In this document: positions 1-44,196 of the stretch, in pieces | How the letters are laid out: every line of letters starts with the position of its first letter | How positions within the stretch are numbered: position 1 is the stretch's first letter | IMG/VR virus record: IMGVR_UViG_3300027969_000084 | Span: 1 to 64,000 of that record | Direction: 5' to 3' (one strand) | DNA from: a virus | DNA: 64,000 bases | Notes under the pieces: model-generated | Told to the model about the DNA's origin: nothing | What the model saw: the letters and a program-made list of their open reading frames with translations, nothing else | Database searches by the model: none | Position numbers and translations under genes: made by a program

Positions 1-137
1 GGGGCATTTTCATCCGCCCGTTCATCCCACCATTCGCGAGCAATATCGGCAACTTTCTTTGTAGCCTTTTCCAGACTATCAAACGCAGTCACATCAGGAA
101 CGTCGTCATATTCATACACAACAACAAAAATGCTCAT
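1..137 (-). CDS. Small early protein, 3' end outside window
   Basis: Forty-five codons of a leftward gene are visible, starting MSIFVVVYEYDDVPDV; the stop lies beyond the left edge. The ATG is preceded by an AAAGGAA ribosome site and by the stereotyped early leader and promoter at 169-196. No family recognised; the visible part is acidic with a KKVADIAREWWDERAD helix. Too short for the usual ORF cut-off, but it has the same promoter-leader arrangement as its neighbours. Confidence 0.7.
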   Translation of the reverse strand, partial: MSIFVVVYEYDDVPDVTAFDSLEKATKKVADIAREWWDERADENA

Positions 138-168
138 GTCGGTTTCCTTTGCTTCAATCTATGGACTT

Positions 169-196
169 AATCTACAGTAAGAAAAAAACAAGTCAA
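169..196 (-). promoter_or_regulatory. Early promoter, TTGACT-N16-TAGATT
   Basis: Sigma70-like boxes on the minus strand, followed by the shared CATAGATTGAAGCAA leader of the gene at 1-137. A 25-bp palindrome lies 23 bp upstream of the -35 box. Confidence 0.7.
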
Positions 197-219
197 GCAC
201 TTTTTTTGAGTAGGTTTCT

Positions 220-244
220 GTTAACACTAATTTTTAGTATTAAC
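220..244. repeat. 25-bp palindrome, copy 1
   Basis: Arms GTTAACACTAA and TTAGTGTTAAC around a 3-nt A/T centre; this copy has one mismatch (TTAGTATTAAC). One of nine copies in the early region; candidate operator. Confidence 0.8.
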
Positions 245-256
245 AAAACCGCTAAA

Positions 257-283
257 GAAAAAGGCAGGGATTTCTCCCCGCCC
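257..283 (-). terminator. Intrinsic terminator
   Basis: On the minus strand a GGCGGGGA/TCCCTGCC stem is followed by TTTTTC. It lies just after the gene at 297-629. Confidence 0.75.
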
Positions 284-296
284 TTAATAAGCCCTA

Positions 297-629
297 TTAG
301 TATTCTGCAAACGCATCCTCATCTTCATCTTCGTTTTCAACAATACCCTTATAAGTATTGATATGACCGCGAACACGGCGGCTCTCGCTCTTGTAGATCA
401 CATAATTGCCAATTTCGACACGATGCTCGGAATCCACATACTCAAACCCACCATAATAGGCCAGAGAACGATTACGAGACTGTGTGACGGCAATGCAATC
501 ATCGCCCACGAACAACTCATAACCAGACCGAATATCCAGCCCAATGTCCTTAGCCGTGACTTTGGTAAGGGTGGCAATAAACTCTTCAGCCAGATCATTT
601 ACACGATCACATACAGTATCTAAGTTCAT
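297..629 (-). CDS. Hypothetical early protein, 110 aa
   Basis: Not recognised. Begins MNLDTVCDRVNDLAEEF and ends in an acidic tail (NEDEDEDAFAEY). The start at 629 is preferred over an in-frame ATG 12 nt upstream, because that one overlaps the GGAG ribosome site of the conserved leader. The centre reads as short beta strands (SGYELFVGDDCIAVTQS). It has its own promoter (661-688) and terminator (257-283), so it is probably a monocistronic early gene. Confidence 0.8.
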   Translation of the reverse strand: MNLDTVCDRVNDLAEEFIATLTKVTAKDIGLDIRSGYELFVGDDCIAVTQSRNRSLAYYGGFEYVDSEHRVEIGNYVIYKSESRRVRGHINTYKGIVENEDEDEDAFAEY

Positions 630-660
630 GATGATCTCCATTGCTTCAATCTATGGTCTG

Positions 661-688
661 AATATACAGTAGGACGAATCAATGTCAA
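661..688 (-). promoter_or_regulatory. Early promoter, TTGACA-N16-TATATT
   Basis: Perfect -35 and near-consensus -10 on the minus strand. The TACTG preceding the -10 and the CATAGATTGAAGCAATGGAGA leader recur at other early genes. Confidence 0.8.
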
Positions 689-697
689 CTCTTATTT

Positions 698-1000
698 TTA
701 ACCCCCATACATACAAATGTCGTTAAATTCGTCATTGCTCATGCAAAGATAATCATTTTCGGTATATCCCCATCGGTCAATACCCGCACCGATATCGATA
801 TATTTTCCATCTTCAAATGCGCTGTAGCCATAGCTATCAAACCCATCCTTGTCATAGATGCCATAATGAAGGCGAGTATTGTATTCACCTTCGGCCCAAG
901 TTTCAGGGGGAATCTGCTTATCAGCATTGTAGATATATTGACCCGCATTATCGGCAATAATCTTTTTAGTGAGGGCAGGACTGTACTTACCTTTTGACAT
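698..1000 (-). CDS. Hypothetical early protein, 100 aa
   Basis: Starts MSKGKYSPALTKKI at 1000. A longer reading to 1054 would run through the promoter, so it is rejected; the chosen ATG follows a GGAG site. The protein is rich in Tyr, Gly and Asp (HYGIYDKDGFDSYGYSAF) and ends NDICMYGG. No family recognised. No terminator separates it from the promoter of the next gene. Confidence 0.8.
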   Translation of the reverse strand: MSKGKYSPALTKKIIADNAGQYIYNADKQIPPETWAEGEYNTRLHYGIYDKDGFDSYGYSAFEDGKYIDIGAGIDRWGYTENDYLCMSNDEFNDICMYGG

Positions 1001-1027
1001 ATCAATCTCCTTCAATCTATAGTCTGA

Positions 1028-1055
1028 ATATACAATATGAGAAAAACATGTCAAG
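1028..1055 (-). promoter_or_regulatory. Early promoter, TTGACA-N16-TATATT
   Basis: Drives the gene at 698-1000; same spacing and leader as the other early promoters. Palindrome copy 2 begins 24 bp upstream. Confidence 0.8.
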
Positions 1056-1078
1056 CATTATTTTTGGGTAGGATTCCG

Positions 1079-1103
1079 TTAACACTAAAAATTAGTGTTA
1101 ACA
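1079..1103. repeat. 25-bp palindrome, copy 2
   Basis: Perfect arms GTTAACACTAA/TTAGTGTTAAC with AAA centre. Confidence 0.85.
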
Positions 1104-1117
1104 AATCCCTAAAGAAA

Positions 1118-1142
1118 AAAGGCGGGGGAAAATCCCCGCCCT
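1118..1142 (-). terminator. Intrinsic terminator
   Basis: GGCGGGG/CCCCGCC stem followed on the minus strand by a T-run; lies just after the gene at 1148-1705. Confidence 0.75.
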
Positions 1143-1147
1143 TTATA

Positions 1148-1705
1148 TTATGCCGCAACCTTGGCCCGAACCTTTACCGGAGTCGCAACATAATTGTAGC
1201 CACTACCAAGACAATAAAATTGTCCCATAAGATAATTAGCTTCATCCGCATCCTTCGCATAAATCTTTTCAGTCATAGCGTGCTTCATTGGAGAGTGCTT
1301 CTGGTTTGCGGACACTTCAAACAAAACATCCTCTGGATAAAGAGATTCAGCAACCCACCGCTTACGGGTAAAGCGATAGCGCATCATCTTAGTCTCGAAA
1401 TTGCCCTCATAGAGAGTCAGAGTCTTCGTGAACGGATTGAATTGAGCCGAATATGAAACCCAACTAGCATTGGCACGATCATCAATAAACAACACATCAT
1501 GGCCATAAACGATTTGTTTCATGATGTGGTTAGTTTGATGAACATCACCATCAAAACCACGAATAGCATTCATTTCCACCATGTAATTTTCCGCAATGTC
1601 ACGAAGATTCCACATGAATCCATCCACAGTCATGCAAATAGCCTTGCTCCAACGCATAGAACCATCAGCATTAGACTCAATAGATAAAACCGCATGAGTG
1701 CCCAT
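1148..1705 (-). CDS. Hypothetical early protein, 185 aa
   Basis: Not recognised. Begins MGTHAVLSIESNADGSMRW. Soluble, mixed alpha/beta, with a basic C-terminus (KVRAKVAA). The start follows an AGGAG site in the conserved leader, and the gene has its own promoter (1737-1764) and terminator. It is the largest of the five leftmost genes. Opening with MGTHAVLSI could suggest a small beta-sheet enzyme, but no catalytic motif is visible. Confidence 0.8.
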   Translation of the reverse strand: MGTHAVLSIESNADGSMRWSKAICMTVDGFMWNLRDIAENYMVEMNAIRGFDGDVHQTNHIMKQIVYGHDVLFIDDRANASWVSYSAQFNPFTKTLTLYEGNFETKMMRYRFTRKRWVAESLYPEDVLFEVSANQKHSPMKHAMTEKIYAKDADEANYLMGQFYCLGSGYNYVATPVKVRAKVAA

Positions 1706-1736
1706 AATTATCTCCTATTCGTTAATCTATGGTCTG

Positions 1737-1764
1737 AATATACAGTAGGACGAATCATTGTCAA
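1737..1764 (-). promoter_or_regulatory. Early promoter, TTGACA-N16-TATATT
   Basis: Matches the 661-688 promoter almost base for base, including TCGTCCTACTG before the -10; the two promoters look like duplicates. Confidence 0.8.
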
Positions 1765-1768
1765 TAGA

Positions 1769-1791
1769 AAAAGAGGACCGAAGCCCTCTTA
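1769..1791 (-). terminator. Probable terminator
   Basis: AAGAGG/CCTCTT stem with a CTTCGG-type loop, followed by TTTC on the minus strand, just after the gene at 1795-2178. Weaker than the others. Confidence 0.5.
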
Positions 1792-1794
1792 ATC

Positions 1795-2178
1795 TTAGCC
1801 ATGATATTCAAACCTACTTTTCGGAACATAAAGCGTTTCGATAACGGCTTCCAACTCAGACACGGCTTCAAGCCATTGTCCAATAGCAACAATAGCATCG
1901 GCCCCAATCTGCCAACTAGGCTCACCGCCATGCAAGTTAATGCCACGATTGCCAGCCGCGCATTCGAGAACGGTGGACCTATTATATCGAGAAACGAATT
2001 GACCTAGAACACGCCCATTCTCATCCTTATCGTGAGCATAACGCACATCATAAAACTCAACCAAAGGTTCATCTTGATCATTGGTAAGGCAAAGGTTACG
2101 GCCATACTTATCGCCCTTATTCACAACGCGAACCGTGAACGAACGATTGGCCGAATCAGTGAAAACTTTAGAAGTCAT
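1795..2178 (-). CDS. Hypothetical early protein, 127 aa
   Basis: Starts MTSKVFTDSANRSFTVRVV. Three in-frame ATGs lie close together; the one at 2178 sits 7 nt after GGAG, the best spacing. The N-terminal half reads as a beta-rich domain (PLVEFYDVRYAHD); the C-terminal half contains a helix (IVAIGQWLEAVSELEAVIETL). No family recognised. Own promoter at 2211-2238. Confidence 0.8.
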   Translation of the reverse strand: MTSKVFTDSANRSFTVRVVNKGDKYGRNLCLTNDQDEPLVEFYDVRYAHDKDENGRVLGQFVSRYNRSTVLECAAGNRGINLHGGEPSWQIGADAIVAIGQWLEAVSELEAVIETLYVPKSRFEYHG

Positions 2179-2210
2179 TGTCATCTCCATTGCTTCAATC
2201 TATGACCACC

Positions 2211-2238
2211 AATCTACAGTAATAAAAAAACATGTCAA
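2211..2238 (-). promoter_or_regulatory. Early promoter, TTGACA-N16-TAGATT
   Basis: Minus-strand boxes upstream of the gene at 1795-2178; palindrome copy 3 lies 33 bp further upstream. Confidence 0.75.
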
Positions 2239-2271
2239 TCATTATTTTCAATTAAAAGGAAGTTAATCCGC

Positions 2272-2296
2272 GTTAACACTAATTTTTAGTGTTAAC
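2272..2296. repeat. 25-bp palindrome, copy 3
   Basis: Perfect GTTAACACTAA/TTAGTGTTAAC arms with TTT centre. Confidence 0.85.
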
Positions 2297-2304
2297 AAAT
2301 CCCT

Positions 2305-2337
2305 AAAAAATAGAGGCGAGATTTCTCCCGCCTCTTT
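2305..2337 (-). terminator. Intrinsic terminator
   Basis: AGAGGCGGGA/TCTCGCCTCT-type stem followed by a T-run on the minus strand, just after the GP88-like gene. Confidence 0.7.
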
Positions 2338-2340
2338 TGC

Positions 2341-3108
2341 CTATGCAGCCATTGCCATAGGATATTCCACATAATCACGCAACACAAAGCCCGAAGTATC
2401 CCGCTTTGCTTTCTGACCCTTGGGTGACAGCCCAACCACCACATTCTTATCATCCAAATGGCGCAAGTCGTGCTTATCGCCATCAATAACCCGATAGCCG
2501 TTCCAAGTCTCAGGCAATGGACCGCCGAACACAATGGCGACATTGTATCCCGCCGCCAATACTTTCAGGCATGAATCCTCATTAGATTCCGAACGAGAAA
2601 ATGTGAAATGAACATTAGAATACTTATGCGAGTCCATCATACGATTCAGACTCTTAGTATATTCCACAAATTGAACATTAGGGAATCGTTCAATAAGAGT
2701 CTTACGCTCCTTACCATAACGCATACGCTCAAAAGCAATGTCAGTAGAACCGTTAAGGCGAACGCACGGGATCAAATCATTCTTAGATGCCTTGGCAACC
2801 AAGCTTACAATGGCTTTCTCTAAATGCGCCATATAGACTTCCCGTTGTTTCATAAACATGATTGCCTTATTGATTCGGCTTTCGCGAACGGAATTAGTAT
2901 CGTTTTCCAAATCAGCAACCATTGCGGCCTGTCCAGAATATTTTCCCAAACATACCCAAATACATCCTTTAGTAGCATCAACGCACATATTGCCAACGCC
3001 CGCTTCCGTATACGCGGCCATGTAATGGATTCCATTAAGAAAACCATACTTAATGGACTTAACAGCCTTGGGGGAATCTGTAGACAAAAGACGCTTGAAA
3101 TTGATCAT
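2341..3108 (-). CDS. GP88-family protein, 255 aa
   Basis: Resembles the phage gene-product-88 family of unknown function. Visible hallmarks: a Cys-containing segment CVDATKGCIWVCLGKYSG near residues 42-59, an arginine-bearing helix (ESRINKAIMFMKQREVYMAHL), and CVRLNGSTDIAFERM, which in relatives reads RLNGxSDI. The start at 3108 (MINFKRLL) is chosen because a longer TTG reading crosses the promoter at 3143-3170. Family members are common in phages of many hosts; the reaction is unknown. Family assignment is from memory of motifs, not a search. Confidence 0.75.
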   Translation of the reverse strand: MINFKRLLSTDSPKAVKSIKYGFLNGIHYMAAYTEAGVGNMCVDATKGCIWVCLGKYSGQAAMVADLENDTNSVRESRINKAIMFMKQREVYMAHLEKAIVSLVAKASKNDLIPCVRLNGSTDIAFERMRYGKERKTLIERFPNVQFVEYTKSLNRMMDSHKYSNVHFTFSRSESNEDSCLKVLAAGYNVAIVFGGPLPETWNGYRVIDGDKHDLRHLDDKNVVVGLSPKGQKAKRDTSGFVLRDYVEYPMAMAA

Positions 3109-3142
3109 TGATTGTCTCTCTCTGTTAAAACCTATGGCCCCC

Positions 3143-3170
3143 AATCTACAGTATGATAAAACATTGTCAA
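3143..3170 (-). promoter_or_regulatory. Early promoter, TTGACA-N16-TAGATT
   Basis: Leftward promoter of the GP88-like gene. Its -35 box is only 14 bp from the -35 box of a rightward promoter (3185-3212), back to back. Confidence 0.8.
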
Positions 3171-3184
3171 GAGAATCTTTTCGC

Positions 3185-3212
3185 TTGACAGGAATCAATC
3201 ATACTGTAGAAT
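3185..3212 (+). promoter_or_regulatory. Rightward promoter, TTGACA-N16-TAGAAT
   Basis: Near-consensus sigma70 boxes pointing into a conserved non-coding element. The same divergent arrangement recurs at 7769-7838. Confidence 0.8.
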
Positions 3213-3218
3213 GAACAT

Positions 3219-3281
3219 ATAGAGAAATAGAACCACCGAGTCATTGATTCGTAGAGGGTATGTAATCCGCTCCTGCGCGTT
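3219..3281 (+). ncRNA. Putative small RNA, copy A
   Basis: About 50 nt (3229-3280) match copy B at 7860-7910 almost exactly. The blocks are AGAACCACCGAGTC, GATTCGTAGAGGG, ATGTAATCCGC and CCTGCG. GAGTC and GATTC can pair (with one G-U), and only the 3-nt loop differs (ATT here, ACA in copy B), as expected for a hairpin. The only overlapping reading frame in copy B is interrupted here by TGA, so a shared peptide is unlikely. A strong promoter precedes it. Palindrome copy 4 follows and could form the 3' hairpin. Confidence 0.6.
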
Positions 3282-3282
3282 A

Positions 3283-3447
3283 TTAAAAAAAATTAACACT
3301 AATTTTTAGTGTTAACAAATATACCAACCCTAGGTAGTATTTTAAAAAATGCAACTTATGGTAATTATAATAAAAAAGAGGGGGATTTCTCCCCCTCGCA
3401 TACTTGGTTGCAATCTGTTTTATCTTAGGGACTTTTACTTTCCCCAT
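3283..3447 (-). CDS. Small basic peptide gene, up to 54 aa
   Basis: Starts MGKVKVPKIKQIATKYARG and overlaps the stop of the upstream gene (TAATG), suggesting translational coupling. Residues 3-17 closely match the separate peptide gene at 6132-6215 (KVPKxKxIATKxA). After about residue 18 the frame runs through the terminator stem at 3371-3397 and a palindrome before stopping at 3283, so the functional part may be only the N-terminus, or the gene may have lost its own stop. Confidence 0.5.
   Translation of the reverse strand: MGKVKVPKIKQIATKYARGRNPPLFYYNYHKLHFLKYYLGLVYLLTLKISVNFF
3292..3316. repeat. 25-bp palindrome, copy 4
   Basis: First base of the left arm is A instead of G; otherwise perfect. 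Lies directly after small RNA copy A. Confidence 0.85.
3371..3397 (-). terminator. Intrinsic terminator, GAGGGGG type
   Basis: GAGGGGG/CCCCCTC stem followed by TTTTTT on the minus strand. The same stem-loop recurs at 3905, 4908 and 6109. Confidence 0.8.
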
Positions 3448-3734
3448 TAAGCAGCCGCTTGAATCGGCATAGAAGCCTTCAGGGCGGCGATTCGTGCGTC
3501 TAGGTCACTCAGGGCCGCATCATGCTTAGTCTTGCCCTTGTAGGCCTTCCCAGAGAACGCAGTGACCATTCCCAGCATGCGGGTAATGGTGACACCGCGA
3601 GTCGGGATCATACCGAACCGCTGGTGCATTTTGATGCTTTGACGCAGAACCATCAGACGATAGAGATCAACGGCATCAGGGCCGTTGAAGGATGTTGCAC
3701 CAGACTTGCCGACGACGATGTGAGAATCATTCAT
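3447..3734 (-). CDS. Hypothetical early protein, 95 aa
   Basis: Starts MNDSHIVVGKSGATSFNGPDAVDLYRL after AAGGAGAG; the longer reading to 3818 includes the promoter. Helical and basic in the middle (VLRQSIKMHQRFGMIPTRG), with a C-terminal helix (SDLDARIAALKASMPIQAAA). No family recognised. Its stop overlaps the start of the small basic peptide gene at 3447. Confidence 0.8.
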   Translation of the reverse strand: MNDSHIVVGKSGATSFNGPDAVDLYRLMVLRQSIKMHQRFGMIPTRGVTITRMLGMVTAFSGKAYKGKTKHDAALSDLDARIAALKASMPIQAAA

Positions 3735-3765
3735 GTGTGTCTCTCCTTGCTTCAAACAATAATGG

Positions 3766-3794
3766 TTTTTACCGTACAAAAAATCATATGTCAA
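3766..3794 (-). promoter_or_regulatory. Early promoter, TTGACA-N17-TAAAAA
   Basis: Upstream of the gene at 3447-3734. Leader contains TTTGAAGCAAGGAGA, a variant of the common early leader. Confidence 0.7.
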
Positions 3795-3860
3795 GCATAC
3801 CGTAGATTGTATTTTCAAATGATATAATACAACCTAAAGTTTACTCAGTCTTATACCGAC

Positions 3861-3885
3861 GTTAACACTAATTTTTAGTGTTAAT
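3861..3885. repeat. 25-bp palindrome, copy 5
   Basis: Perfect except that the last base is T rather than C. Confidence 0.85.
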
Positions 3886-3898
3886 AAAAATGACCATA

Positions 3899-3924
3899 AA
3901 AAAAGAGGGGGATTTCTCCCCCTC
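3899..3924 (-). terminator. Intrinsic terminator, GAGGGGG type
   Basis: Stem GAGGGGG (3905-3911) with CCCCCTC (3918-3924), followed by TTTTTTT on the minus strand; ends the DUF2958 gene. Confidence 0.8.
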
Positions 3925-3929
3925 AAATC

Positions 3930-4265
3930 TTAGGCGACAATCCGTCCCTCATTTCGTGCCTCACTGGCATATTCCGAGAGAGTCTTGTTAGGGGTGAATG
4001 AACGATCCCGTTCAATCTTCAAACCAAATGGTCCCTTAACAGATTGGATTTCCTCTAAGGACACCCAGCCTAGTTCTGGCTCGCCCATGCCAAGGTCACA
4101 CAGACCAAACAACATGGTTTCATCTAGGGGGTCAATCTCCGAGATAAGCCATGTGGCACGTCCCCAAGGGGTGAATAGCTTCACCACAGGCTTATTCTTC
4201 TTAGATGATTGAATCTCGCCTTGCTTTAGAAGCTTGGCCTTGTCAGCAGCAGTCAAAAGAATCAT
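3930..4265 (-). CDS. DUF2958-family protein, 111 aa
   Basis: The order of motifs fits DUF2958, a small family common on plasmids and phages. VVKLFTPWGRATWLISEIDP near residues 28-47 is followed by LFGLCDLGMGEPELGWVSLEEI and then VKGPFGLKIERDRSF. Length matches the family (about 110 aa). Function unknown; relatives often sit beside DNA-modification or antirestriction genes. The start follows AAGGAG in the shared early leader. Confidence 0.75.
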   Translation of the reverse strand: MILLTAADKAKLLKQGEIQSSKKNKPVVKLFTPWGRATWLISEIDPLDETMLFGLCDLGMGEPELGWVSLEEIQSVKGPFGLKIERDRSFTPNKTLSEYASEARNEGRIVA

Positions 4266-4296
4266 TTAGTTCTCCTTTGCTTCAATCTATAAGAGA

Positions 4297-4325
4297 CCAT
4301 AATTCAGATACTGTAGCCTGTCAAG
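4297..4325 (-). promoter_or_regulatory. Early promoter, TTGACA-N17-TATGGT
   Basis: Leader CTTATAGATTGAAGCAAAGGAG precedes the DUF2958 gene. Confidence 0.65.
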
Positions 4326-4713
4326 CCACTATTTGCTCGACAGGCGCATTTTTAATTCCCTTCGGAAGCTTCAAAAACTTAACAACCTTTGCCGAATATT
4401 TGACATAATCGTCAAAAATATCCACACTACCATCAGTAGCAAACAGGGCAGGGGTGGATTCGTGAACCTGACCATCCGAACTAATGGTTAGGCCAAACTT
4501 CGGAACAGCCTTGCCAGAACGTGCATAGGCATTCTCACAGGCCACAACACCCGTCGAGAACCGCATCTTCACATTGGCAGCATCATCCCAGCTATAAGGC
4601 TTGTAGGCGTATTGATACAGAGCAATCTCTGTCTCAATCTGCGAACCATCATCGAGCGCGATTAGCGCGGTGGCAACGTGACTTGGCTTGGTCTTGTAAA
4701 CATAAACGCCCAT
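4321..4713 (-). CDS. Hypothetical early protein, 130 aa
   Basis: Starts MGVYVYKTKPSHVATALIAL at 4713 after GGAGAGAG; the reading to 4758 would include leader sequence. Mixed alpha/beta, ending LPKGIKNAPVEQIVA. The stop is about 5 nt from the -35 box of the DUF2958 promoter, leaving no room for a terminator. No family recognised. Confidence 0.8.
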   Translation of the reverse strand: MGVYVYKTKPSHVATALIALDDGSQIETEIALYQYAYKPYSWDDAANVKMRFSTGVVACENAYARSGKAVPKFGLTISSDGQVHESTPALFATDGSVDIFDDYVKYSAKVVKFLKLPKGIKNAPVEQIVA

Positions 4714-4745
4714 GTTCTCTCTCCATTGCTTCAATCTATAACCAG

Positions 4746-4774
4746 ATACTAATCCCATTACAGTAGCCTGTCTA
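4746..4774 (-). promoter_or_regulatory. Early promoter, TAGACA-N17-TAGTAT
   Basis: Nearly identical to the promoter at 5934-5962 downstream of the -35 (GTATCTGGTTATAG), but with a weaker -35. Confidence 0.65.
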
Positions 4775-4824
4775 CATACCTAAAGATGTATTTTCAAATA
4801 AATTGAATAACCTTATAGTAGAAA

Positions 4825-4849
4825 ATTAACACTAAAAATTAGTGTTAAC
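4825..4849. repeat. 25-bp palindrome, copy 6
   Basis: First base is A instead of G; AAA centre. Confidence 0.85.
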
Positions 4850-4903
4850 AAAATCACAATTAAAAATAGAAAAATAAAAAATACAACCTATAATAGAAAT
4901 GGT

Positions 4904-4927
4904 AAAAGAGGGGGATTTCTCCCCCTC
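4904..4927 (-). terminator. Intrinsic terminator, GAGGGGG type
   Basis: GAGGGGG (4908-4914)/CCCCCTC (4921-4927) stem, TTTT on the minus strand; follows the gene at 4934-5167. Confidence 0.75.
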
Positions 4928-4933
4928 CCTATC

Positions 4934-5167
4934 CTATGACTTCAGAATCTCTTTCAATTCTGCCTTGATGCGCTTGGCATGTTCGCCACGGAACGATGCA
5001 GCATTGGCTAGGAAGTACGAGACGCACGAGCGTCCAGTGTCCATGAAATAACGATCATTGATGCTGTGAAGGGTCAGCATGGCCTCAAGATAGGGCTTGG
5101 CCGCATAGTTCACATTTTCCCAATACTTACGAATCTCGCGGGCGATTTCATTGATAGGACGAGGCAT
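4934..5167 (-). CDS. Hypothetical early protein, 77 aa
   Basis: Starts MPRPINEIAREIRKYWENVN after AGGAG. Predicted all-helical and basic, with FLANAASFRGEHAKRIKAEL near the C-terminus. No family recognised. It has its own promoter at 5201-5229 and terminator. Confidence 0.8.
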   Translation of the reverse strand: MPRPINEIAREIRKYWENVNYAAKPYLEAMLTLHSINDRYFMDTGRSCVSYFLANAASFRGEHAKRIKAELKEILKS

Positions 5168-5200
5168 GTGTTCATCTCCTGTTGCTCATTCAATACAGAC

Positions 5201-5229
5201 ACTCTAGTCGCATTACTGTATGCTGTCAA
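5201..5229 (-). promoter_or_regulatory. Early promoter, TTGACA-N17-TAGAGT
   Basis: Upstream of the 77-aa gene; the leader diverges slightly from the common form. Palindrome copy 7 lies 62 bp upstream. Confidence 0.65.
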
Positions 5230-5291
5230 CTTACCTAAAGATGTATTTCAAAATAAATTAGATAAACCTATGGTTGTATTGTTAGACAGGC

Positions 5292-5316
5292 GTTAACACT
5301 AATTTTTAGTGTTAAC
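5292..5316. repeat. 25-bp palindrome, copy 7
   Basis: Perfect arms, TTT centre. Confidence 0.85.
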
Positions 5317-5327
5317 AAAACCATAAA

Positions 5328-5352
5328 GAAAAAGGAGGGGAAAATCCCCTCC
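5328..5352 (-). terminator. Intrinsic terminator
   Basis: GGAGGGG/CCCCTCC stem followed by TTTTTC on the minus strand; ends the gene at 5362-5631. Confidence 0.75.
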
Positions 5353-5361
5353 CTTCCCTTA

Positions 5362-5631
5362 CTATCGCTCAAGTTCTCCAAAAATACCGTCCATAACATC
5401 GTCCAGATGCCGCATAGGCTCCGAGTCCGTTGCGCCCAAGTGACGATAAGAAGTCATCGTGGCCATAGCCTTGGAATAAACTTCCCAACGACCATCACCA
5501 GAAGAAACACTATCAACTATCGTCTTATTGATATGATCAACCGCAGATTGCGATTCAGGCATATCAAACAATTCCCAACGAGAAACACTATCAGTCAATT
5601 CAATAGTGCGAGAAATGATCTTCAAAGCCAT
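5362..5631 (-). CDS. Hypothetical early protein, 89 aa
   Basis: Starts MALKIISRTIELTDSVSRW after GGAG. Contains AVDHINKTIVDSVSSGDGRWEVYSK split between helix and strand, and an acidic C-terminus (DVMDGIFGELER). No family recognised. Confidence 0.75.
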   Translation of the reverse strand: MALKIISRTIELTDSVSRWELFDMPESQSAVDHINKTIVDSVSSGDGRWEVYSKAMATMTSYRHLGATDSEPMRHLDDVMDGIFGELER

Positions 5632-5662
5632 GTTCTATCTCCGTTGCTTCAAACTATGATGT

Positions 5663-5691
5663 AAACTACTGTAGGAAATATCGTATGTCAA
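5663..5691 (-). promoter_or_regulatory. Early promoter, TTGACA-N17-TAGTTT
   Basis: Leader CATAGTTTGAAGCAACGGAG is the common early leader with two changes. Confidence 0.65.
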
Positions 5692-5705
5692 GCCTTATAT
5701 GATGC

Positions 5706-5900
5706 CTAACGAACTGGTTGAATGAAATAGACTTCGCCCGATTGCGTGTAGAAGTCCGATGCGGGGTAGTCAACGTCCGCGTCCACTTCATAGAAGGCGA
5801 TCTTGAAGGTAGCCTTGGCGTGTGCCTCTGCTTCCTCGAAAGTGCCAAAGGTGGCCACGACAGTCTTGGAGAAGCGGGTAGCGGATGCGATTTCAAACAT
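5706..5900 (-). CDS. Small early protein, 64 aa
   Basis: Starts MFEIASATRFSKTVVATFG after GGGAG. Short alpha/beta protein with an alanine-rich helix (TFEEAEAHAKATFKI) flanked by strands and ending GEVYFIQPVR. An alternative frame (5666-5896) is a shadow. No family recognised. Confidence 0.75.
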   Translation of the reverse strand: MFEIASATRFSKTVVATFGTFEEAEAHAKATFKIAFYEVDADVDYPASDFYTQSGEVYFIQPVR

Positions 5901-5933
5901 GGTGTGTCTCCCGTTGTTTCAATCTATAACCAG

Positions 5934-5962
5934 ATACTAACCCCACTACAGTATGCTGTCAA
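5934..5962 (-). promoter_or_regulatory. Early promoter, TTGACA-N17-TAGTAT
   Basis: Near-duplicate of the promoter at 4746-4774, with the same upstream ACCTAAxGATGTATTTTCAA segment. Confidence 0.7.
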
Positions 5963-6023
5963 CCTACCTAACGATGTATTTTCAAATAAATTAAATAAAC
6001 CTATGGTTGTATTTTAAGCCAGC

Positions 6024-6048
6024 GTTAACACTAAAAATTAGTGTTAAC
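6024..6048. repeat. 25-bp palindrome, copy 8
   Basis: Perfect arms, AAA centre. Confidence 0.85.
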
Positions 6049-6103
6049 AAAACTACCAATCCAAAATAGCAAAAACAAAAATACAACCTATCATATGCAT
6101 GGT

Positions 6104-6128
6104 AAAAAGAGGGGGATTTCTCCCCCTC
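6104..6128 (-). terminator. Intrinsic terminator, GAGGGGG type
   Basis: GAGGGGG (6109-6115)/CCCCCTC (6122-6128), then TTTTT on the minus strand; ends the helicase/peptide unit. Confidence 0.8.
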
Positions 6129-6131
6129 AAA

Positions 6132-6215
6132 TTATCGTCCGAGTCTCTTGGGTTTCAGAGTCTTGATGGCAAACTTGGTCGCGATCTTTTTGACCTTGGG
6201 CACTTTGATTTTCAT
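6132..6215 (-). CDS. Small basic peptide, 27 aa
   Basis: Starts MKIKVPKVKKIATKFAIK and ends PKRLGR; about one third Lys/Arg. The start at 6215 lies 6 nt after an AGAGG site; another ATG two codons upstream is possible. It follows the helicase gene by 21 nt and shares its transcript. The closely matching N-terminus of the peptide at 3447 shows selection for this sequence. Could bind nucleic acid or a host protein; function unknown. Confidence 0.6.
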   Translation of the reverse strand: MKIKVPKVKKIATKFAIKTLKPKRLGR

Positions 6216-6236
6216 GGGCATCCTCTGGGTTAGACC

Positions 6237-7733
6237 CTAGCCCACAAACGCTAGGGTGTGCTGGGCACGGGTTACAGCCACGTAGGCTAGGTTAGCTTCC
6301 TGCTGAAGCTGCCAAGCTTGGCGAGCAGCCTTAGACGGACAGCGGGCGGCATGCTCGAACAGGAACACGCGATTCCATTCACGGCCCTTAGAGCGGTGAT
6401 AGGTGGCGAGAACTATGGCCCCCGACACATCATCCGAGAAAAGATCATCAATGAATGCGACAACGGCATCAACCGAGGTGTGGCCCTTGGCCGTGACAGC
6501 GGCAATGATGTGAAGCAGGGTGGCCACACGGTCCTCGATTTCCTCGATTTTTTGGTCCTGACCCTTGGCCATAGCCTTTTGGATTTCGCGATCCTTATAG
6601 GTGTCAAGCTTATTAATAAGCGCGGAAGTAGTGGTGACTTTCCAGCGGCGAGCGAGGGCTTTCAGACCCTCGCCAATGGCGCGGCCTTCAACACGAGCGG
6701 GCTTGCCTTGGCGGATCAGGCTGTAGGCCAGATCGATCAGAGGGGCGGTGTTACGGCACAAGATGGCATCACCCACGGCCATATCGTCTGGCAAGGCGTC
6801 AAGGCGCTGTACAGCCCCTTCAGGAGCCTCTGGGGCGGCTTCAATGTCTTGGACATACTGTTGGGCCACGGCCACGACAGCCTTGGGACAACGCCATGTG
6901 ACGGACAGAGGCAGAACCGTGGCATTAAGAGCCTCGATCATGTTCGGCAGGGCCTCAGCGTCCGCACCGGAAAATCCATAGATAGCTTGGCGATCATCGC
7001 CCACGATAATCATCCGGCCAGTGTGAGGCTTCACAAACTTGCGGATCAAGGCTTGGCGAGCAGGGCTAAGGTCTTGAGCCTCGTCCACGAAAACAATGTC
7101 CTTACCGAAGCGAACCCGAAGATTCTTAACCAAGGGGAACAAAATCATGTCGTCAAAATCAACCACGTTGGTTTGAGCCAACGATTGACGATAGATGATT
7201 TGAGCAGCCTCAATCACCGAATCGAGGTCCGAAGTATCCTCGAAACCGTTCACGTCAAAATGGTCAGCGAGGGCGTACCATGCGCCGATATCACCGATCT
7301 GAGAGGTAGGGAAAAACCCGAAGCCTGCGCCCTTGGCGTAGCCCACCAGTTGCTTAATTTGAGCGCGGCAAAACTGATAGATAGGCGCTTCCTGATTATC
7401 GATCAGGCGATCAACCTTTTTGGAATCCACCTCCGACTTGAATGCGAACTTGATCAAGCCATAGCCAAGAGCATGCAGGGTCGAGGTCTGAATCTTGCGC
7501 CAGTCAGTGTGACCCGCCGCCTTTAGCTTCGAGGAAACTTCTTCAGCAATCGCCTTGTTGAACGCACAAACGAGAACTTCCGCGTTCGGAGCAATCGCGG
7601 CGAGGGCGTCAACGCCGAGAAGGATGGTGGAAGTCTTGCCGCAGCCCGCACGAGCGATCAGGGCGAGGTTTGAGGAGGTCGAGGTCAGAGCCGAAAGAAA
7701 CGCGGCCTGTTGAGCCGTGGGTGCGAAAGCCAT
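6237..7733 (-). CDS. UvrD/Rep-like superfamily 1A helicase, 498 aa
   Basis: DNA helicase of the UvrD/Rep type. Visible motifs in order: Walker A AGCGKT (29-34), DEAQD (217-221), VGDDRQAIYGF (244-254), TYHRSKGREWNRVF (motif V region) and AYVAVTRAQHT near residue 485 (motif VI). At 498 aa it is shorter than bacterial UvrD, so accessory 2B insertions are reduced, as in phage Dda-like enzymes. Start 7733 follows GGGAG; five upstream codons are possible. Markedly more GC-rich than the right half of the window. Likely roles are replication restart or recombination. Confidence 0.9.
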   Translation of the reverse strand: MAFAPTAQQAAFLSALTSTSSNLALIARAGCGKTSTILLGVDALAAIAPNAEVLVCAFNKAIAEEVSSKLKAAGHTDWRKIQTSTLHALGYGLIKFAFKSEVDSKKVDRLIDNQEAPIYQFCRAQIKQLVGYAKGAGFGFFPTSQIGDIGAWYALADHFDVNGFEDTSDLDSVIEAAQIIYRQSLAQTNVVDFDDMILFPLVKNLRVRFGKDIVFVDEAQDLSPARQALIRKFVKPHTGRMIIVGDDRQAIYGFSGADAEALPNMIEALNATVLPLSVTWRCPKAVVAVAQQYVQDIEAAPEAPEGAVQRLDALPDDMAVGDAILCRNTAPLIDLAYSLIRQGKPARVEGRAIGEGLKALARRWKVTTTSALINKLDTYKDREIQKAMAKGQDQKIEEIEDRVATLLHIIAAVTAKGHTSVDAVVAFIDDLFSDDVSGAIVLATYHRSKGREWNRVFLFEHAARCPSKAARQAWQLQQEANLAYVAVTRAQHTLAFVG

Positions 7734-7768
7734 CGTGGTGTCTCCCAAAAATTCAAATAACGAGCCTC

Positions 7769-7797
7769 TCCATACCGTAGGAAAAAACCTTTGTCAA
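7769..7797 (-). promoter_or_regulatory. Helicase promoter, TTGACA-N17-TATGGA
   Basis: Leftward promoter, back to back with 7811-7838; the two -35 boxes are 13-14 bp apart, as at 3165-3190. Confidence 0.75.
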
Positions 7798-7810
7798 GAT
7801 AAAAAAAGGC

Positions 7811-7838
7811 TTGACAACAATCAACCCTACTGTAAAAT
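7811..7838 (+). promoter_or_regulatory. Rightward promoter, TTGACA-N16-TAAAAT
   Basis: Near-consensus promoter feeding small RNA copy B. Confidence 0.8.
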
Positions 7839-7844
7839 GAAAAT

Positions 7845-7910
7845 ACAAGATGACCTATCAGAACCACCGAGTCACAGATTCGTAGAGGGAATGTAATCCG
7901 CCCCTGCGTG
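7845..7910 (+). ncRNA. Putative small RNA, copy B
   Basis: Core 7860-7910 matches copy A (3229-3280). The GAGTC-ACA-GATTC hairpin and GAGGG...CCCCT pairing are possible. A 19-codon frame starting MKIQDDLSEPP crosses this copy but is broken by a stop in copy A. A TGCG/CGCA mini-hairpin and then palindrome copy 9 follow. End point uncertain. Confidence 0.6.
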
Positions 7911-7938
7911 ACGCAAAAAAAAGAACAAAGCATGAACC

Positions 7939-7963
7939 GTTAACACTAATTTTTAGTGTTAAC
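7939..7963. repeat. 25-bp palindrome, copy 9
   Basis: Perfect arms, TTT centre; as with copy 4, it lies just beyond a small RNA copy. Confidence 0.85.
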
Positions 7964-7973
7964 AAAAGTACCA

Positions 7974-8222
7974 ACCCAAGATAGCAAAATCCAAAATACC
8001 ATCTGAAATAGAAAAAAATACCACCTAGGGTAGAGTGCCCAGAAAAATACAACCTAGAGTAGAGTAAATGCAACCTAGGGTAGAGTAGTCAAAAAAATGC
8101 AACTCAAAGTAGAATACAACTTAAAATAGCAAAATATAAAATACTATCTAGAATATAATACAACTTCAGGTAGAATGATTACAATTTACAATTTAAAGTA
8201 GAATGCCAACCTATGGTAGAAT
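7974..8222 (+). repeat. Degenerate TACAACCTA-GTAGAAT repeat array
   Basis: About eleven imperfect repeats of TACAACCTARRGTAGAAT follow one another at roughly 20-30 bp spacing. Examples are TACCACCTAGGGTAGAGT, TACAACCTAGAGTAGAGT, TGCAACCTAGGGTAGAGT and TACAACTTCAGGTAGAAT. Single copies also lie near 3330, 3348, 3827, 4891, 6081 and 8683. The TAGAAT/TAGAGT ends resemble the -10 of the rightward promoter at 3207. No gene is supported in this stretch. Confidence 0.7.
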
Positions 8223-8493
8223 GAAATCATCAGGAAAAAATTCAATCAAAAAATTTCCAGCCAAAATCTCTCAAGTATTTTAAAAAATTCCAAGTATATT
8301 TTTTCCAACATAAAAAAAATCCCATAGAAATTTTCTATATGATAATCCCAATGTTCTGCCAATGTTCCGGCCATGCGTCTAATATGCATTATGAGAAATA
8401 ATTTTTCTCTATACCAACAATCATAAGATAAAAACATCTAAACGAACATCCAAGTAATCATAAACCAAATACTATCAAACAATAAATTAATCA
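8223..8493. other. AT-rich gap with no supported gene
   Basis: Strongly AT-rich. A 63-codon leftward frame (8246-8437) has no ribosome site, no recognisable family and biased low-complexity content; not called. Confidence 0.5.
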
Positions 8494-8521
8494 TTGACTA
8501 ATCTTAAACCTATGATATCAT
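8494..8521 (+). promoter_or_regulatory. Promoter, TTGACT-N16-TATCAT
   Basis: Rightward sigma70-like promoter about 33 bp before the 37-aa peptide gene. Confidence 0.65.
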
Positions 8522-8553
8522 CATAAATGTCATAGTATAAGGATCAGTCTAAT

Positions 8554-8667
8554 ATGCCTAAGAAACTAACAACCCTTCAAAAAACCATGAAGACTATTAA
8601 ATCCAAACAAGCTAAAAAGACTAAAATGCTGAAGACAGCCATGAAGGTCATTAAGAAGAAGCGTTAA
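8554..8667 (+). CDS. Lys-rich small peptide, 37 aa
   Basis: Starts MPKKLTTLQKTMKTIKSK and ends KVIKKKR. About 40 percent of residues are Lys/Arg, with no acidic residues, in a probable single amphipathic helix. Preceded by AAGGA 10 nt upstream and a plausible promoter. It is an isolated rightward gene among leftward ones. Its composition recalls the KVPK peptides at 3447 and 6215 and suggests nucleic-acid binding; function unknown. Confidence 0.65.
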   Translation: MPKKLTTLQKTMKTIKSKQAKKTKMLKTAMKVIKKKR

Positions 8668-8689
8668 TCAACTAAAATGATTTGCAACC

Positions 8690-8866
8690 TATAATCGCAG
8701 AAAAAGTTCGCGAAAAAACTTCGCAACTTTTCCTCGCAACAAAAGTCTGCAAAGAAAGTTCGCAACTTTTTCAGGAAAACTTCGCATAAAAAGTCTGCAA
8801 GAAAACTTCGCAGAAAAACTCTGCAACTTTTTCTCAAAAAATCCGCAGACTTTTATCGCAACTTTT
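8690..8866. repeat. CGCAACTTTTT/GAAAACTTCGCA repeat cluster
   Basis: About 175 bp are built from CGCAACTTTTT (about five copies) and AACTTCGCA/GTCTGCAA variants. The first pair can form a hairpin (8702-8731, AAAAGTT-GCGAA with TTCGC-AACTTTT) that could terminate transcription from 8494. The rest looks like degenerate duplicates of that hairpin arm. Confidence 0.6.
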
Positions 8867-9144
8867 TAAAGATTTGACGACGATCTAATAGCCTCAAATT
8901 CCTCTTCAGTCTCAATAGCCTTACCATTAAATAAACCATATGGAGCAAATGGCTTCTTCACACCATTAATAAGATCATTAACTTCTTCCATTGATTCCGC
9001 TACAGTCCATATTACTGTAGAACCAGTAAGACCACCATAAATCAATGTCTTACTATCTTCAGAATACATCGATACAATGTGAGAAGGATTCAAATAAAGA
9101 ACCTTGCCCACATATTCTTCACTCGCATTCGTTAACTTAATCAT
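8866..9144 (-). CDS. FlbD/SwrD-like small protein, 92 aa
   Basis: The first 60 residues follow the pattern of the FlbD/SwrD flagellar family: MIKLTNASEEYVGKVLYLNP, then HIVSMYSEDSKTLI, then a closing VAESMEEVNDLI. A C-terminal extension (APYGLFNGKAIETEEEF) is additional. In bacteria this small protein supports flagellar motor power; in a phage it may simply be the same small beta fold with another role. Start at 9144 lies 7 nt after AAGGA; a TTG two codons earlier is less likely. Confidence 0.55.
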   Translation of the reverse strand: MIKLTNASEEYVGKVLYLNPSHIVSMYSEDSKTLIYGGLTGSTVIWTVAESMEEVNDLINGVKKPFAPYGLFNGKAIETEEEFEAIRSSSNL

Positions 9145-9212
9145 ATCCAAATCCTTAAAAACAATTCATTGAATATAACATACTAATAGTATATAAACAA
9201 ATATTAAGAAAA

Positions 9213-9635
9213 TTAGTCTTCAGACTTTCTAGCCTTCAACTTTTTAGTTTCTTTCTCACCAGTTTTCTGGCTGTATATACCATCAACACCATATTTTTTA
9301 TATCTATCTACCCAAGAATCAAGTTCTTCACGACTCATGTCATAACGCTTCTTAGCTTCTTCATATGAGAATAAACCAGCATCAATAAGAACTATTAACT
9401 TTAACTTCATTAATGGACTACCTATACCTCTAGGAGAATTAACCGGTAAATCATTTGCAGTAATTCTCATAGGCTTACCATTTACATCTATCACTACATG
9501 CTTCTGAGATAGTCTGTCATATTGTGAATCATTCTCCATCACTCTAGAACGAGAATGCTCCTTCAATAAGGATATAGCCTCATCATATATTCCATTACTC
9601 TCTAATAAAGCATAAAGCTTAGCAATCGGTGTCAT
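9213..9635 (-). CDS. SciP-like (DUF1153-type) HTH regulator, 140 aa
   Basis: Residues about 45-115 match the alphaproteobacterial SciP/DUF1153 pattern. VIDVNGKPMRITANDLPVNS is followed by a trihelical segment (KLKLIVLIDAGLFSYEEAKK, RYDMSREELDSWVDRYKKYG). In Caulobacter, SciP binds CtrA and blocks its activation of target promoters. The N-terminal 40 residues (LYALLESNGIYDEAISLL) and a Lys-rich C-terminal tail are extra. A GAATAAATA late-type motif lies upstream (9660-9667), and the start follows GGAG. Family call from motif memory; moderate confidence. Confidence 0.65.
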   Translation of the reverse strand: MTPIAKLYALLESNGIYDEAISLLKEHSRSRVMENDSQYDRLSQKHVVIDVNGKPMRITANDLPVNSPRGIGSPLMKLKLIVLIDAGLFSYEEAKKRYDMSREELDSWVDRYKKYGVDGIYSQKTGEKETKKLKARKSED

Positions 9636-10468: not shown

Positions 10469-10706
10469 ATTAGTACTAATGTAAAAGGATTAGTACTAAG
10501 CTTTTTGAGAGGATTAGTACTAATTTGGGGTGGATTAGTACTAAGCTTTTTGTGGTGAATTAGTCCTAATTTTGATGCATTAGTACTAAGCTTTTTTGCA
10601 TCATTTTTTACCTCATTTTTGCTTATATAATTAGTACTAATTTTGATGCATTAGTACTAAGCTTTTTGGAAAGGATTAGTCCTAATTTGTTTGGATTAGT
10701 ACTAAT
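10469..10706. repeat. Ten-copy ATTAGTACTAAT repeat array
   Basis: Ten palindromic TTAGTACTAA or TTAGTCCTAA units start at 10469, 10489, 10513, 10534, 10559, 10579, 10630, 10650, 10675 and 10695. Steps alternate near 20 and 25 bp, with one gap of 51 bp, so sites recur about every two helical turns. Right flanks alternate between AATTT and AAGCTTTTT. The array lies just upstream of the RHH gene and looks like an operator, centromere or iteron array. Confidence 0.85.
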
Positions 10707-10769: not shown

Positions 10770-10982
10770 ATGTCTTTATCGGACAAGAAAGAGATTAACA
10801 GGAAGGCTGCTGCTGCATTTACTTCTAAGAAGAAGGATCAGGGTCAGCGGTTGATTAAGGGTTGGGTTGATTCTGATACTTACGATATGTTAGTTTCTTT
10901 GAAGGGTTCTCGTTATAAGAGTACTGATGAACTTCTTGCTGATGCTATAGCTATCTTATATGTAACTGCGAATAATTTATAG
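10770..10982 (+). CDS. Ribbon-helix-helix-like DNA-binding protein, 70 aa
   Basis: Basic N-terminal arm (DKKEINRKAAAAFTSKKKDQ), then RLIKGWVDSDTYDMLVSL as the strand and first helix. YKSTDELLADAIAILYVT would be the second helix, the usual order of RHH proteins such as CopG/Arc/ParG. Start follows AGGA at 7 nt. It is the first gene rightward of the ten-site array, which is the natural candidate for its binding site: autoregulation or partition. Assignment rests on pattern only. Confidence 0.6.
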   Translation: MSLSDKKEINRKAAAAFTSKKKDQGQRLIKGWVDSDTYDMLVSLKGSRYKSTDELLADAIAILYVTANNL

Positions 10983-41694: not shown

Positions 41695-43536
41695 TTACCC
41701 TCTCCATTTGTTCACGATAGGGTAGCGACGATCACGTCCATGAATCTTGCTGGTGATCTTTACGCCGGGAGCAGCTTGGCGGCGCTTATATTCCGCATTA
41801 TCTACCAATTGACGAATCTTCATCACCACTGAACAATCTATGTTAATTCGCATAGCAATTTCATCTACGCTCAATTCATCTTCGATCATACCCTTTAGAA
41901 GGCTATCAAGAACAGGGTAAGGGGGCAACGATTGCTCATCGAATTGGTCTGGACGAAGTTCGGCGGAAGGTGGCTTTACAATGATAGCTTCAGGAACAAC
42001 CTCATCATTTGTACCAAAAAACCCATAGGATTTAATCTGAGAAAGATCGAGATTATTTCTCCAGCGACACAGTTCCCACACGGTAGTCTTATACAAATCC
42101 TTAATAGGATTAAAACCACCCGACATGTCGCCATATAATGTCGCATAACCAACACTAACTTCTGACTTATTTCCCGTTGTCAGGAGAAGATGATATTCTT
42201 GATTGGATATTGCCATGAGAATATTACCACGCGCTCTCGCTTGAATATTTTCATCTGCAATTCCCGTCAGCTTGCGAGGGTTTAGATTTTCATTACCACC
42301 GTTATAAACATTATGTTCTGGATAATTCCCGTGATCCGTAGTATTTGCGTATGCTTGCCGCAAAGCTTCCACAACCGGTTCAATAGAAATTGTACGAACC
42401 TTGGCACGAAGACGATCAGAACCAGCCGCTGCATCATTCAAAGAATGCTGGCTGCTATATTTTGAAGGCAACCGAACTAGATGTACATTATCCGGACCAA
42501 CCGCATCGGCTGCAATAGCCGCAACCAATCCAGAATCAACACCTCCGGAATATCCAATAACTACTGACTTGAAACCCTGCTTGTGCATATAGTCGCGAGT
42601 ACCAAGCACACATGCTTGATAGATTTCTGCAAAACTAGTTGGTTCTACTGTCGGATAGTTATCAACAGTTACTAATGGCGTAGGTTGCTTAATCCATTGG
42701 GAATGTTCACCATCATCAGAAATATGAATGATAGCTTCTCCCGCAGAATTAGTATGACGATTTTCAGAAGAAATGTTTACATCTACATAGAAGATATCTT
42801 CTTGGAAGGATGGGAACTCTTTTAGATTTCCGTCATAAAGGAATGATCCACCATCGAACACCAACTCATCTTGTCCACCAACCATATTCACATATAGGAA
42901 TGGTAGACCAGTTTCATTGATGCGATCTTTGATTACATTATGCCGAACAATATTCTTTCCAACTTCAAATGGCGAACCATTGATACTGATCAAAAATTGA
43001 GCACCACGATCCATCATTTCTTTACTGACACGCGGGAACCAACAATCCTCACAGATCATTACTCCAATCGTATGGCCGCGCCATGTGATAGGATATGGCC
43101 GCTCTCCAGAAATGAACACACGCTTTTCGTCAAACACGCCATAATTTGGCAACTCAGTTTTATAAATTAGTTGAATTGGTAAAAGATATTGTCCATCTTG
43201 CGGAGAATATGGCGGAACTTGTGGATCAACCACGTATGCCGCATTACGGATGCCTCTCGGAACTCGACGCGGTGTACCATAGATAATCGTAGGGCCAGTT
43301 TTCCTTGCGCAAATAGTTGTGTTGATAAACTTAACTTTTTCAGCAACCGCAGACATAAAGCTTTCGCGAAGAACAAGGTCTTCTAGCGGATAACCAGTAA
43401 GAGCACATTCTGGGAATACTACCAGTTCAGCGCCTTCGGTTGCGGCTTTATCATATGCAGTAATAATTCGGGCGGCATTACCATCAAGGTCTCCAACAAT
43501 AGGATTAAATTGCACAATGGCGATTTTAGTGGTCAT
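41695..43536 (-). CDS. nadE: Glutamine-dependent NAD+ synthetase
   Basis: Final step of the pathway: nicotinate adenine dinucleotide + ATP + glutamine to NAD+. The N-terminal nitrilase-type amidase shows the Glu-Lys-Cys triad: E43 in VVFPECALTGYP, K126 in LIYKTELPNYG and C162 in VMICEDCWFP. The C-terminal synthetase has the SGGVDS loop at 330-335. At 613 aa it is full length for this type. A TAAATA motif and AGGATC ribosome site precede the ATG, so it may also have its own late promoter. Most bacterial hosts already carry nadE; phage copies are rare. Confidence 0.95.
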   Translation of the reverse strand: MTTKIAIVQFNPIVGDLDGNAARIITAYDKAATEGAELVVFPECALTGYPLEDLVLRESFMSAVAEKVKFINTTICARKTGPTIIYGTPRRVPRGIRNAAYVVDPQVPPYSPQDGQYLLPIQLIYKTELPNYGVFDEKRVFISGERPYPITWRGHTIGVMICEDCWFPRVSKEMMDRGAQFLISINGSPFEVGKNIVRHNVIKDRINETGLPFLYVNMVGGQDELVFDGGSFLYDGNLKEFPSFQEDIFYVDVNISSENRHTNSAGEAIIHISDDGEHSQWIKQPTPLVTVDNYPTVEPTSFAEIYQACVLGTRDYMHKQGFKSVVIGYSGGVDSGLVAAIAADAVGPDNVHLVRLPSKYSSQHSLNDAAAGSDRLRAKVRTISIEPVVEALRQAYANTTDHGNYPEHNVYNGGNENLNPRKLTGIADENIQARARGNILMAISNQEYHLLLTTGNKSEVSVGYATLYGDMSGGFNPIKDLYKTTVWELCRWRNNLDLSQIKSYGFFGTNDEVVPEAIIVKPPSAELRPDQFDEQSLPPYPVLDSLLKGMIEDELSVDEIAMRINIDCSVVMKIRQLVDNAEYKRRQAAPGVKITSKIHGRDRRYPIVNKWRG

Positions 43537-43545
43537 TTTTGATCC

Positions 43546-43551
43546 TATTTA
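43546..43551 (-). promoter_or_regulatory. TAAATA motif upstream of nadE
   Basis: Minus-strand TAAATA 9 nt before the nadE ATG, in the 12-nt gap after the nicotinamidase gene. It might allow separate late expression. Confidence 0.35.
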
Positions 43552-44184
43552 AATATTAGTGCTATAAATTACAGTAACATTACATTCCTGAAAATCAAGC
43601 TCAATTTGGTTAACCGAACCGTTAAGATCGATTGCACGGGTCAAATCCTTGATGACAACGGATTCGAATCCACACTTGATTGCATCAATTGCAGAAAAAC
43701 CAACACAAAAATCATAAGCAAGACCTACAAAGAAGCAGCGCTTGATACCACGCGCAGTCAAATAACCGCGAAGACCAGTATCGGTATTCTTATCATTTTC
43801 TCTGAACGCAGAATATGAATCCACGTCAGATTTGGTTCCTTTGCGGATAATAGCTTGCGCCTTAGTTACCGTATCGGAAATATTCTTATGGAACTCAGAA
43901 CCATATGTATTTTGAATGCAATGATCTGGCCACAAAACTTGATCGCCATATGCCACCTTCGCCAAACCGAAAGCTTCACCACCGTCATGATTTGACGCAA
44001 ATGAGATTTGATTTTGAGGATGCCAATCTTGCGTCACCACAACATTATTGAACTTTTTTGCAAACTCATTAATTGGTAACATAATTTCATCACCGCCAGA
44101 AACGGCTAGAGCGCCATTGGGGCAGAAATCATTTTGTGGATCGATGACGATAAGAACGTCGGTATCATTAATTTGAATATTCAT
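43549..44184 (-). CDS. pncA: Nicotinamidase
   Basis: Isochorismatase-superfamily hydrolase converting nicotinamide to nicotinate and ammonia. Catalytic triad D15 (VIDPQNDF), K115 (IIRKGTKS) and C160 (GLAYDFCVGFSAID); metal site D53-x-H55...H66 (QDWHPQNQISFASNHD). Length 211 aa is normal for PncA. It supplies nicotinate to the pncB product encoded 12 nt upstream in the operon. Confidence 0.93.
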   Translation of the reverse strand: MNIQINDTDVLIVIDPQNDFCPNGALAVSGGDEIMLPINEFAKKFNNVVVTQDWHPQNQISFASNHDGGEAFGLAKVAYGDQVLWPDHCIQNTYGSEFHKNISDTVTKAQAIIRKGTKSDVDSYSAFRENDKNTDTGLRGYLTARGIKRCFFVGLAYDFCVGFSAIDAIKCGFESVVIKDLTRAIDLNGSVNQIELDFQECNVTVIYSTNI

Positions 44185-44196
44185 TTGTATTTCTCC

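Follow-up and report, generated by a model that had tools for sequence, protein, structure and literature searches.

The locus and its phage

The window, a stretch of 64,000 nucleotides, comprises positions 1 to 64,000 of a 69,695-base record of an uncultivated virus (IMGVR_UViG_3300027969_000084). The record encodes a DnaB-like helicase, an NAD synthetase, an NAMPT-like protein, a UvrD-like helicase, and virion proteins. The nearest named phage was Agrobacterium phage Atu_ph07 for the NAD synthetase, and Atu_ph07 together with Sinorhizobium phage Phosso for DnaB, at 45-53% protein identity. Both are jumbo phages, and the most plausible reading of the record is a 69.7-kb piece of another jumbo phage, distant kin of these two. 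The host is presumably alphaproteobacterial. A structural-protein query found no relative in IMG/VR. On the minus strand (41695-45531), the NAD synthetase gene lies near a nicotinamide phosphoribosyltransferase-like gene, a pairing also known from phage NAD-restoring pathways.

Two copies of a non-coding sequence (hereafter the block) lie next to leftward genes, with the following features:

2341..3108, minus strand: GP88-family protein (PF17338; Pfam E 3.5e-29), leftward neighbour of copy 1
3143..3170, minus strand: promoter of the leftward GP88-family gene (-35 at 3165-3170), diverging from the copy 1 promoter
3185..3212, plus strand: rightward promoter of copy 1, TTGACA-N16-TAGAAT with TACTG directly before the -10, predicted start ~A3219
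3229..3277, plus strand: conserved non-coding block, copy 1
6237..7733, minus strand: UvrD-like DNA helicase, leftward neighbour of copy 2
7769..7797, minus strand: leftward helicase promoter, -35 at 7792-7797, weak -10 (TATGGA)
7811..7838, plus strand: rightward promoter of copy 2, TTGACA-N16-TAAAAT with TACTG directly before the -10, predicted start ~A7845
7860..7908, plus strand: conserved non-coding block, copy 2

A 49-nt block is conserved between diverged spacers

The initial annotation had described about 50 nt of nearly identical sequence at 3229-3280 and 7860-7910, and this stands as a block of 49 nt that is identical at 45 of 49 positions in the two copies (consensus AGAACCACCGAGTCAnnGATTCGTAGAGGGnATGTAATCCGCyCCTGCG). 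The 22-nt core of the block, allowing ≤3 mismatches, matched twice, with 0.00 matches expected (100 shuffles), and there was no third exact copy of the core in the whole 69,695-base record.

The block has a GC content of 51-55%, against 22-35% for the surrounding gaps. Neither the spacer that separates the promoter from the block nor the one from the block to the following palindrome aligned well between the copies, and the spacer lengths differed by 5 and 15 nt. This makes the block an island of similarity amid diverged spacers, which speaks for selection on the block itself, beyond mere recent duplication.

Each block lies behind a promoter of the type used by the leftward genes

Like phage small non-coding RNAs, each block has a promoter of its own (at 3185 and 7811), as judged from consensus matches only. 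The earlier description of a near-consensus rightward promoter before each copy, with about 14 bp between its -35 and a leftward -35, was borne out: both promoters match the consensus at 11 of 12 positions, and the gap between the divergent -35 boxes is 14 bp in copy 1 and 13 bp in copy 2. At this spacing, polymerases at the paired promoters should hinder each other. In copy 1, the two divergent promoters form a mutual inverted repeat.

The rightward promoters share the form TTGACA-N11-TACTG-TAnnAT and rank among the top matches within the first 12 kb. The broader form TTGACA-N11-TACTG-TAnnnT occurred six times in positions 1-9600 (two rightward, four leftward) and not once in 300 dinucleotide shuffles; the four leftward members drive leftward genes and the two rightward members aim into the blocks. 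The promoters of the leftward cluster are thus in the same family, and the candidate RNA is probably co-expressed with the leftward genes. The regions at 3184-3219 and 7810-7845 are alike at ~30 of 36 positions. Transcripts would start near 3219 and 7845, placing the block 10-15 nt from the 5' end. The block promoters have no rightward gene to serve before a 37-aa ORF at 8554, which favours the RNA reading.

No coding frame is conserved between the copies

There was no coding frame conserved in both copies, in keeping with a phage small RNA. In copy 2, one frame (MKIQDDLSEPPSHRFVEGM) is open for 19 codons, with an ATG (7837-7839) that lies partly in the -10 box, before the predicted transcript start. 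In copy 1, a TGA interrupts this frame, which also lacks a start, confirming the earlier statement that the sole plausible peptide frame is broken in one copy. In the other frames, the differences between the copies were mostly non-synonymous, or a stop interrupted the block in both. We therefore rejected the block as a peptide gene.

The two copies do not support a common fold

The block alone folded no better than shuffled sequences (z of -0.22 and -0.92 in the two copies); the longer predicted transcripts, palindrome included, gave z of -2.8 and -2.6. RNAalifold drew a consensus of two adjacent hairpins in which no pair had changed on both sides, and its energy was equalled by 14% of random four-base mutants and by 27% of column shuffles. 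In the full predicted transcripts, hairpin 1 (the GAGTC/GATTC stem) had a probability of 0.95 in copy 1 and 0.27 in copy 2, and hairpin 2 had 0.02-0.06 in copy 1 and ~0.8 in copy 2.

The stem had initially been read as conserved while its loop changes. That reading rests on four differences, and by simple arithmetic the chance that four differences in 49 positions all spare ten stem bases is ~39%. The sparing of this 5-bp stem is therefore no evidence of a conserved fold, and the two copies prefer different folds. Neither covariation nor a better-than-chance fold was found for the block, and just two sequences give such a test little power, so that the fold is unsupported, yet not disproved.

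The palindromes belong to a family in the leftward cluster

Nine copies of an AT-rich 25-bp palindrome, GTTAACACTAAwwwTTAGTGTTAAC, are spread over the gaps that separate the leftward genes within the first 8 kb:

221-243, 1079-1101, 2273-2295, 3293-3315, 3862-3884, 4826-4848, 5293-5315, 6025-6047, 7940-7962: palindromes, those at 3293-3315 and 7940-7962 following copy 1 and copy 2, respectively, where the full 25 bp span 3292-3316 and 7939-7963

Eight of the cores are perfect and one has a mismatch. The palindromes lie upstream of the promoters of the leftward early cluster, at distances of 23 to 141 bp from the -35 boxes, and each is probably an operator. The initial annotation was right that a palindrome follows each copy, but with nine copies in the gaps of the cluster this is not a feature of the RNA, and the palindrome after copy 1 probably belongs to the leftward genes instead. 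As an exact pattern, the palindrome was absent from IMG/VR, and no copy with ≤3 mismatches turned up in 14 related records from IMG/VR or in five named phages.

The palindrome was also rejected as an RNA-specific terminator: it is one of nine in the cluster gaps, and no T run follows it. There was no intrinsic terminator on the plus strand near copy 1 or copy 2. Intrinsic terminators are common in phage small RNAs but are not required. The 3' end of the predicted RNA is possibly Rho-dependent or trimmed back to the palindrome. Our model assumes that transcription ends through Rho and that the RNA is then trimmed as far as the palindrome hairpin; the 3' end would probably be at this hairpin, whether reached or trimmed back to, giving RNAs of ~98 and ~119 nt.

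Searches for relatives

Apart from chance-level hits, there was no relative of the block in pattern scans of IMG/VR or in blastn searches of INPHARED phages and PLSDB plasmids, and no exact match to the block core in GTDB species genomes under strict patterns. Rfam gave no match above the gathering score, and there was no tRNA or tmRNA. A covariance-model search, as the initial annotation had suggested, likewise found no homologue beyond chance-level matches in 43 loci, 14 IMG/VR records sharing early genes, and five named phages; the best non-self E value was 0.18 against Atu_ph07, Phosso, Ochrobactrum phage OC, Stenotrophomonas phage RAS14, and HK022. The upstream regions of distant relatives of the helicase and GP88 genes, read by eye, contained no such element. 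Because close kin of the phage are missing, and the collections may omit the records nearest to that of the window, the absence of relatives says little about the age of the element.

To our knowledge, descriptions of small RNAs from jumbo phages are few, and the literature on them contained nothing on the block element.

The block as a probable small phage RNA

The locus carries a duplicated, promoter-driven, non-coding, phage-specific sequence, a description well supported by the sequence. We consider it fairly probable that the blocks are paralogous copies of a gene for a small phage non-coding RNA, transcribed rightward and early from promoters of the type used by the leftward early genes; the two copies would then probably encode an orphan phage RNA. 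We infer its transcription, early timing, 3' end, and action in trans. Since the sequence of the block is kept and its fold is not, base-pairing or protein binding in trans is the most likely mode of action, and the partner would more likely come from the host, as an RNA or another factor, than be a phage message. The rightward promoter would probably also compete with the leftward promoter for polymerase.

The original interpretation, an undescribed phage regulatory RNA, stands in part. No described family matched, and the sequence is duplicated, promoter-driven, and non-coding, but the conserved fold and the RNA-specific palindrome did not hold up; that the RNA is regulatory is something we infer. 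An extended version, in which the blocks represent a new, structure-poor family of phage RNA in two copies that acts early on host RNA polymerase or host RNA and is coupled to two early genes by mutually exclusive back-to-back promoters, seems to us quite improbable.

The block could instead be a DNA site, bound by a regulator or used in recombination, within the divergent promoter region, the rightward promoters being incidental. Its position 58 bp (copy 1) and 62 bp (copy 2) upstream of the leftward -35 boxes would suit such a site, as would an RNA fold no better than chance and the further repeated DNA elements that crowd the region. However, 49 nt is long for one binding site, there is no clear dyad (GAGTC/GATTC is mismatched as DNA), the distance between block and promoter varies by 5 bp, or half a helical turn, and the rightward promoter is conserved along with the block. 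We regard a DNA site as unlikely.

It is very doubtful that the copy 1 RNA regulates the divergent gene next to it by an antisense mechanism. In this scheme, UCAUUGAUU would pair with AAUCAAUGA at the start codon of the GP88-family gene, and there is indeed a perfect 9-nt match across the AUG (~3105-3113; minus-strand match at 3113). But copy 2 alters this stretch (ACAG for AUUG), and there is no matching site at the helicase start. When duplex energies were calculated against all phage start regions, both blocks fell within the shuffled control: the best energy was -34.5, compared to a mean shuffled minimum of -30.9 (sd 3.0), which was not significant. Since no phage start region stands out and copy 2 lacks the 9-nt match, a host target is more likely. 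Lambda OOP and P22 sar are antisense RNAs that pair with the mRNAs they regulate (PMC12197685). Like them, the block RNA would be short and near oppositely directed genes; unlike them, it would be back to back with its neighbour and would not overlap it.

Many leftward genes (1-7800, minus strand) share the leader ATAGATTGAAGCAAnGGAG right after the promoter, a common 5' UTR. Complementarity between the loop and this leader (CAUUG-UUC, found by eye) was rejected, as it is lost in copy 2.

It is also very unlikely that the block is a cis-acting nascent RNA that modifies RNA polymerase in the manner of HK022 putL and putR, which are similar RNAs of ~70 nt with two stem-loops, found downstream of PL and PR (PMC9378689). 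The two blocks are likewise similar and lie right behind early-type promoters, and a model of two adjacent hairpins can be drawn for them by RNAalifold. However, the block is shorter than the put RNAs, its folding is weak and differs between copies, the two-hairpin fold is unfavoured in both full transcripts (by the low probability of hairpin 2 in copy 1 and of hairpin 1 in copy 2), there is no long rightward operon behind either promoter, and the covariance model found nothing in HK022. Put-like antitermination would call for two stable stem-loops in ~70 nt before terminators and an operon, and these were not found; because the two-hairpin fold and the downstream operon are missing, we claim no membership in the put group.

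An origin as small-peptide genes, decayed or unusual in form (frame EPPSH-x-FVEGM-stop), is nearly refuted: the copy 2 frame is open and three of the four differences are synonymous in the EPPSH frame (one of them past the shared stop), but the N-termini of the two copies differ, and neither copy has a usable start in this frame, as described above.

Comparison with known phage RNAs

Phage trans-acting small RNAs and sponges include VpdS of VP882, PreS of lambda, and AgvB and AsxR of EHEC prophages (PMC12197685), and it is the phage small RNAs reviewed there that the block RNA would work most like. Like these four, it would be short, non-coding, and phage-borne, and here it has a predicted promoter of its own; unlike them, the block is present in two copies, lacks an intrinsic terminator, and lies in a jumbo phage fragment, and we found no Rfam or sequence relation to them. 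RNA anti-CRISPRs (Racrs) mimic a CRISPR repeat (PMC10651486). The block resembles Racrs as a candidate small non-coding phage RNA and may be one, but strict patterns gave no exact match to its core in the GTDB species genomes covered.

At present, the sequence makes the block a sound candidate RNA with a proposed mechanism. If the small RNA reading is true, this orphan RNA of the early region, present twice and driven by promoters, would offer a concrete candidate for host takeover at the level of RNA in phages related to rhizobial jumbo phages.

Other repeats and small genes nearby

The surrounding sequence contains several other repeats. Ten copies of a palindrome, TTAGTACTAA (two with one change), are at 10470-10705, right before a rightward gene at 10770. 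The half-site of TTAGTACTAA resembles the 25-bp palindrome (TTAGTGTTAAC); a single regulator may therefore recognise both. At 7972-8222, past the helicase promoter and ahead of the point where transcription changes direction, there are about ten degenerate repeats of CAACCTAnnGTAGAAT, which resemble the TACTGTAG part of the early promoters; this array is possibly an origin or control region. An AT-rich tandem of GCAACTTTTTC/TTCGCAGA motifs occupies a gap near the transcription divergence (8697-8880).

Tiny lysine-rich proteins are encoded at 6131-6215 and 3283-3447 on the minus strand and at 8554-8667 on the plus strand. Two of them, KVPKVKKIATKFA and KVPKIKQIATKYA, are paralogous, and the frame of the KVPKIKQIATKYA paralogue passes through its own terminator and palindrome.
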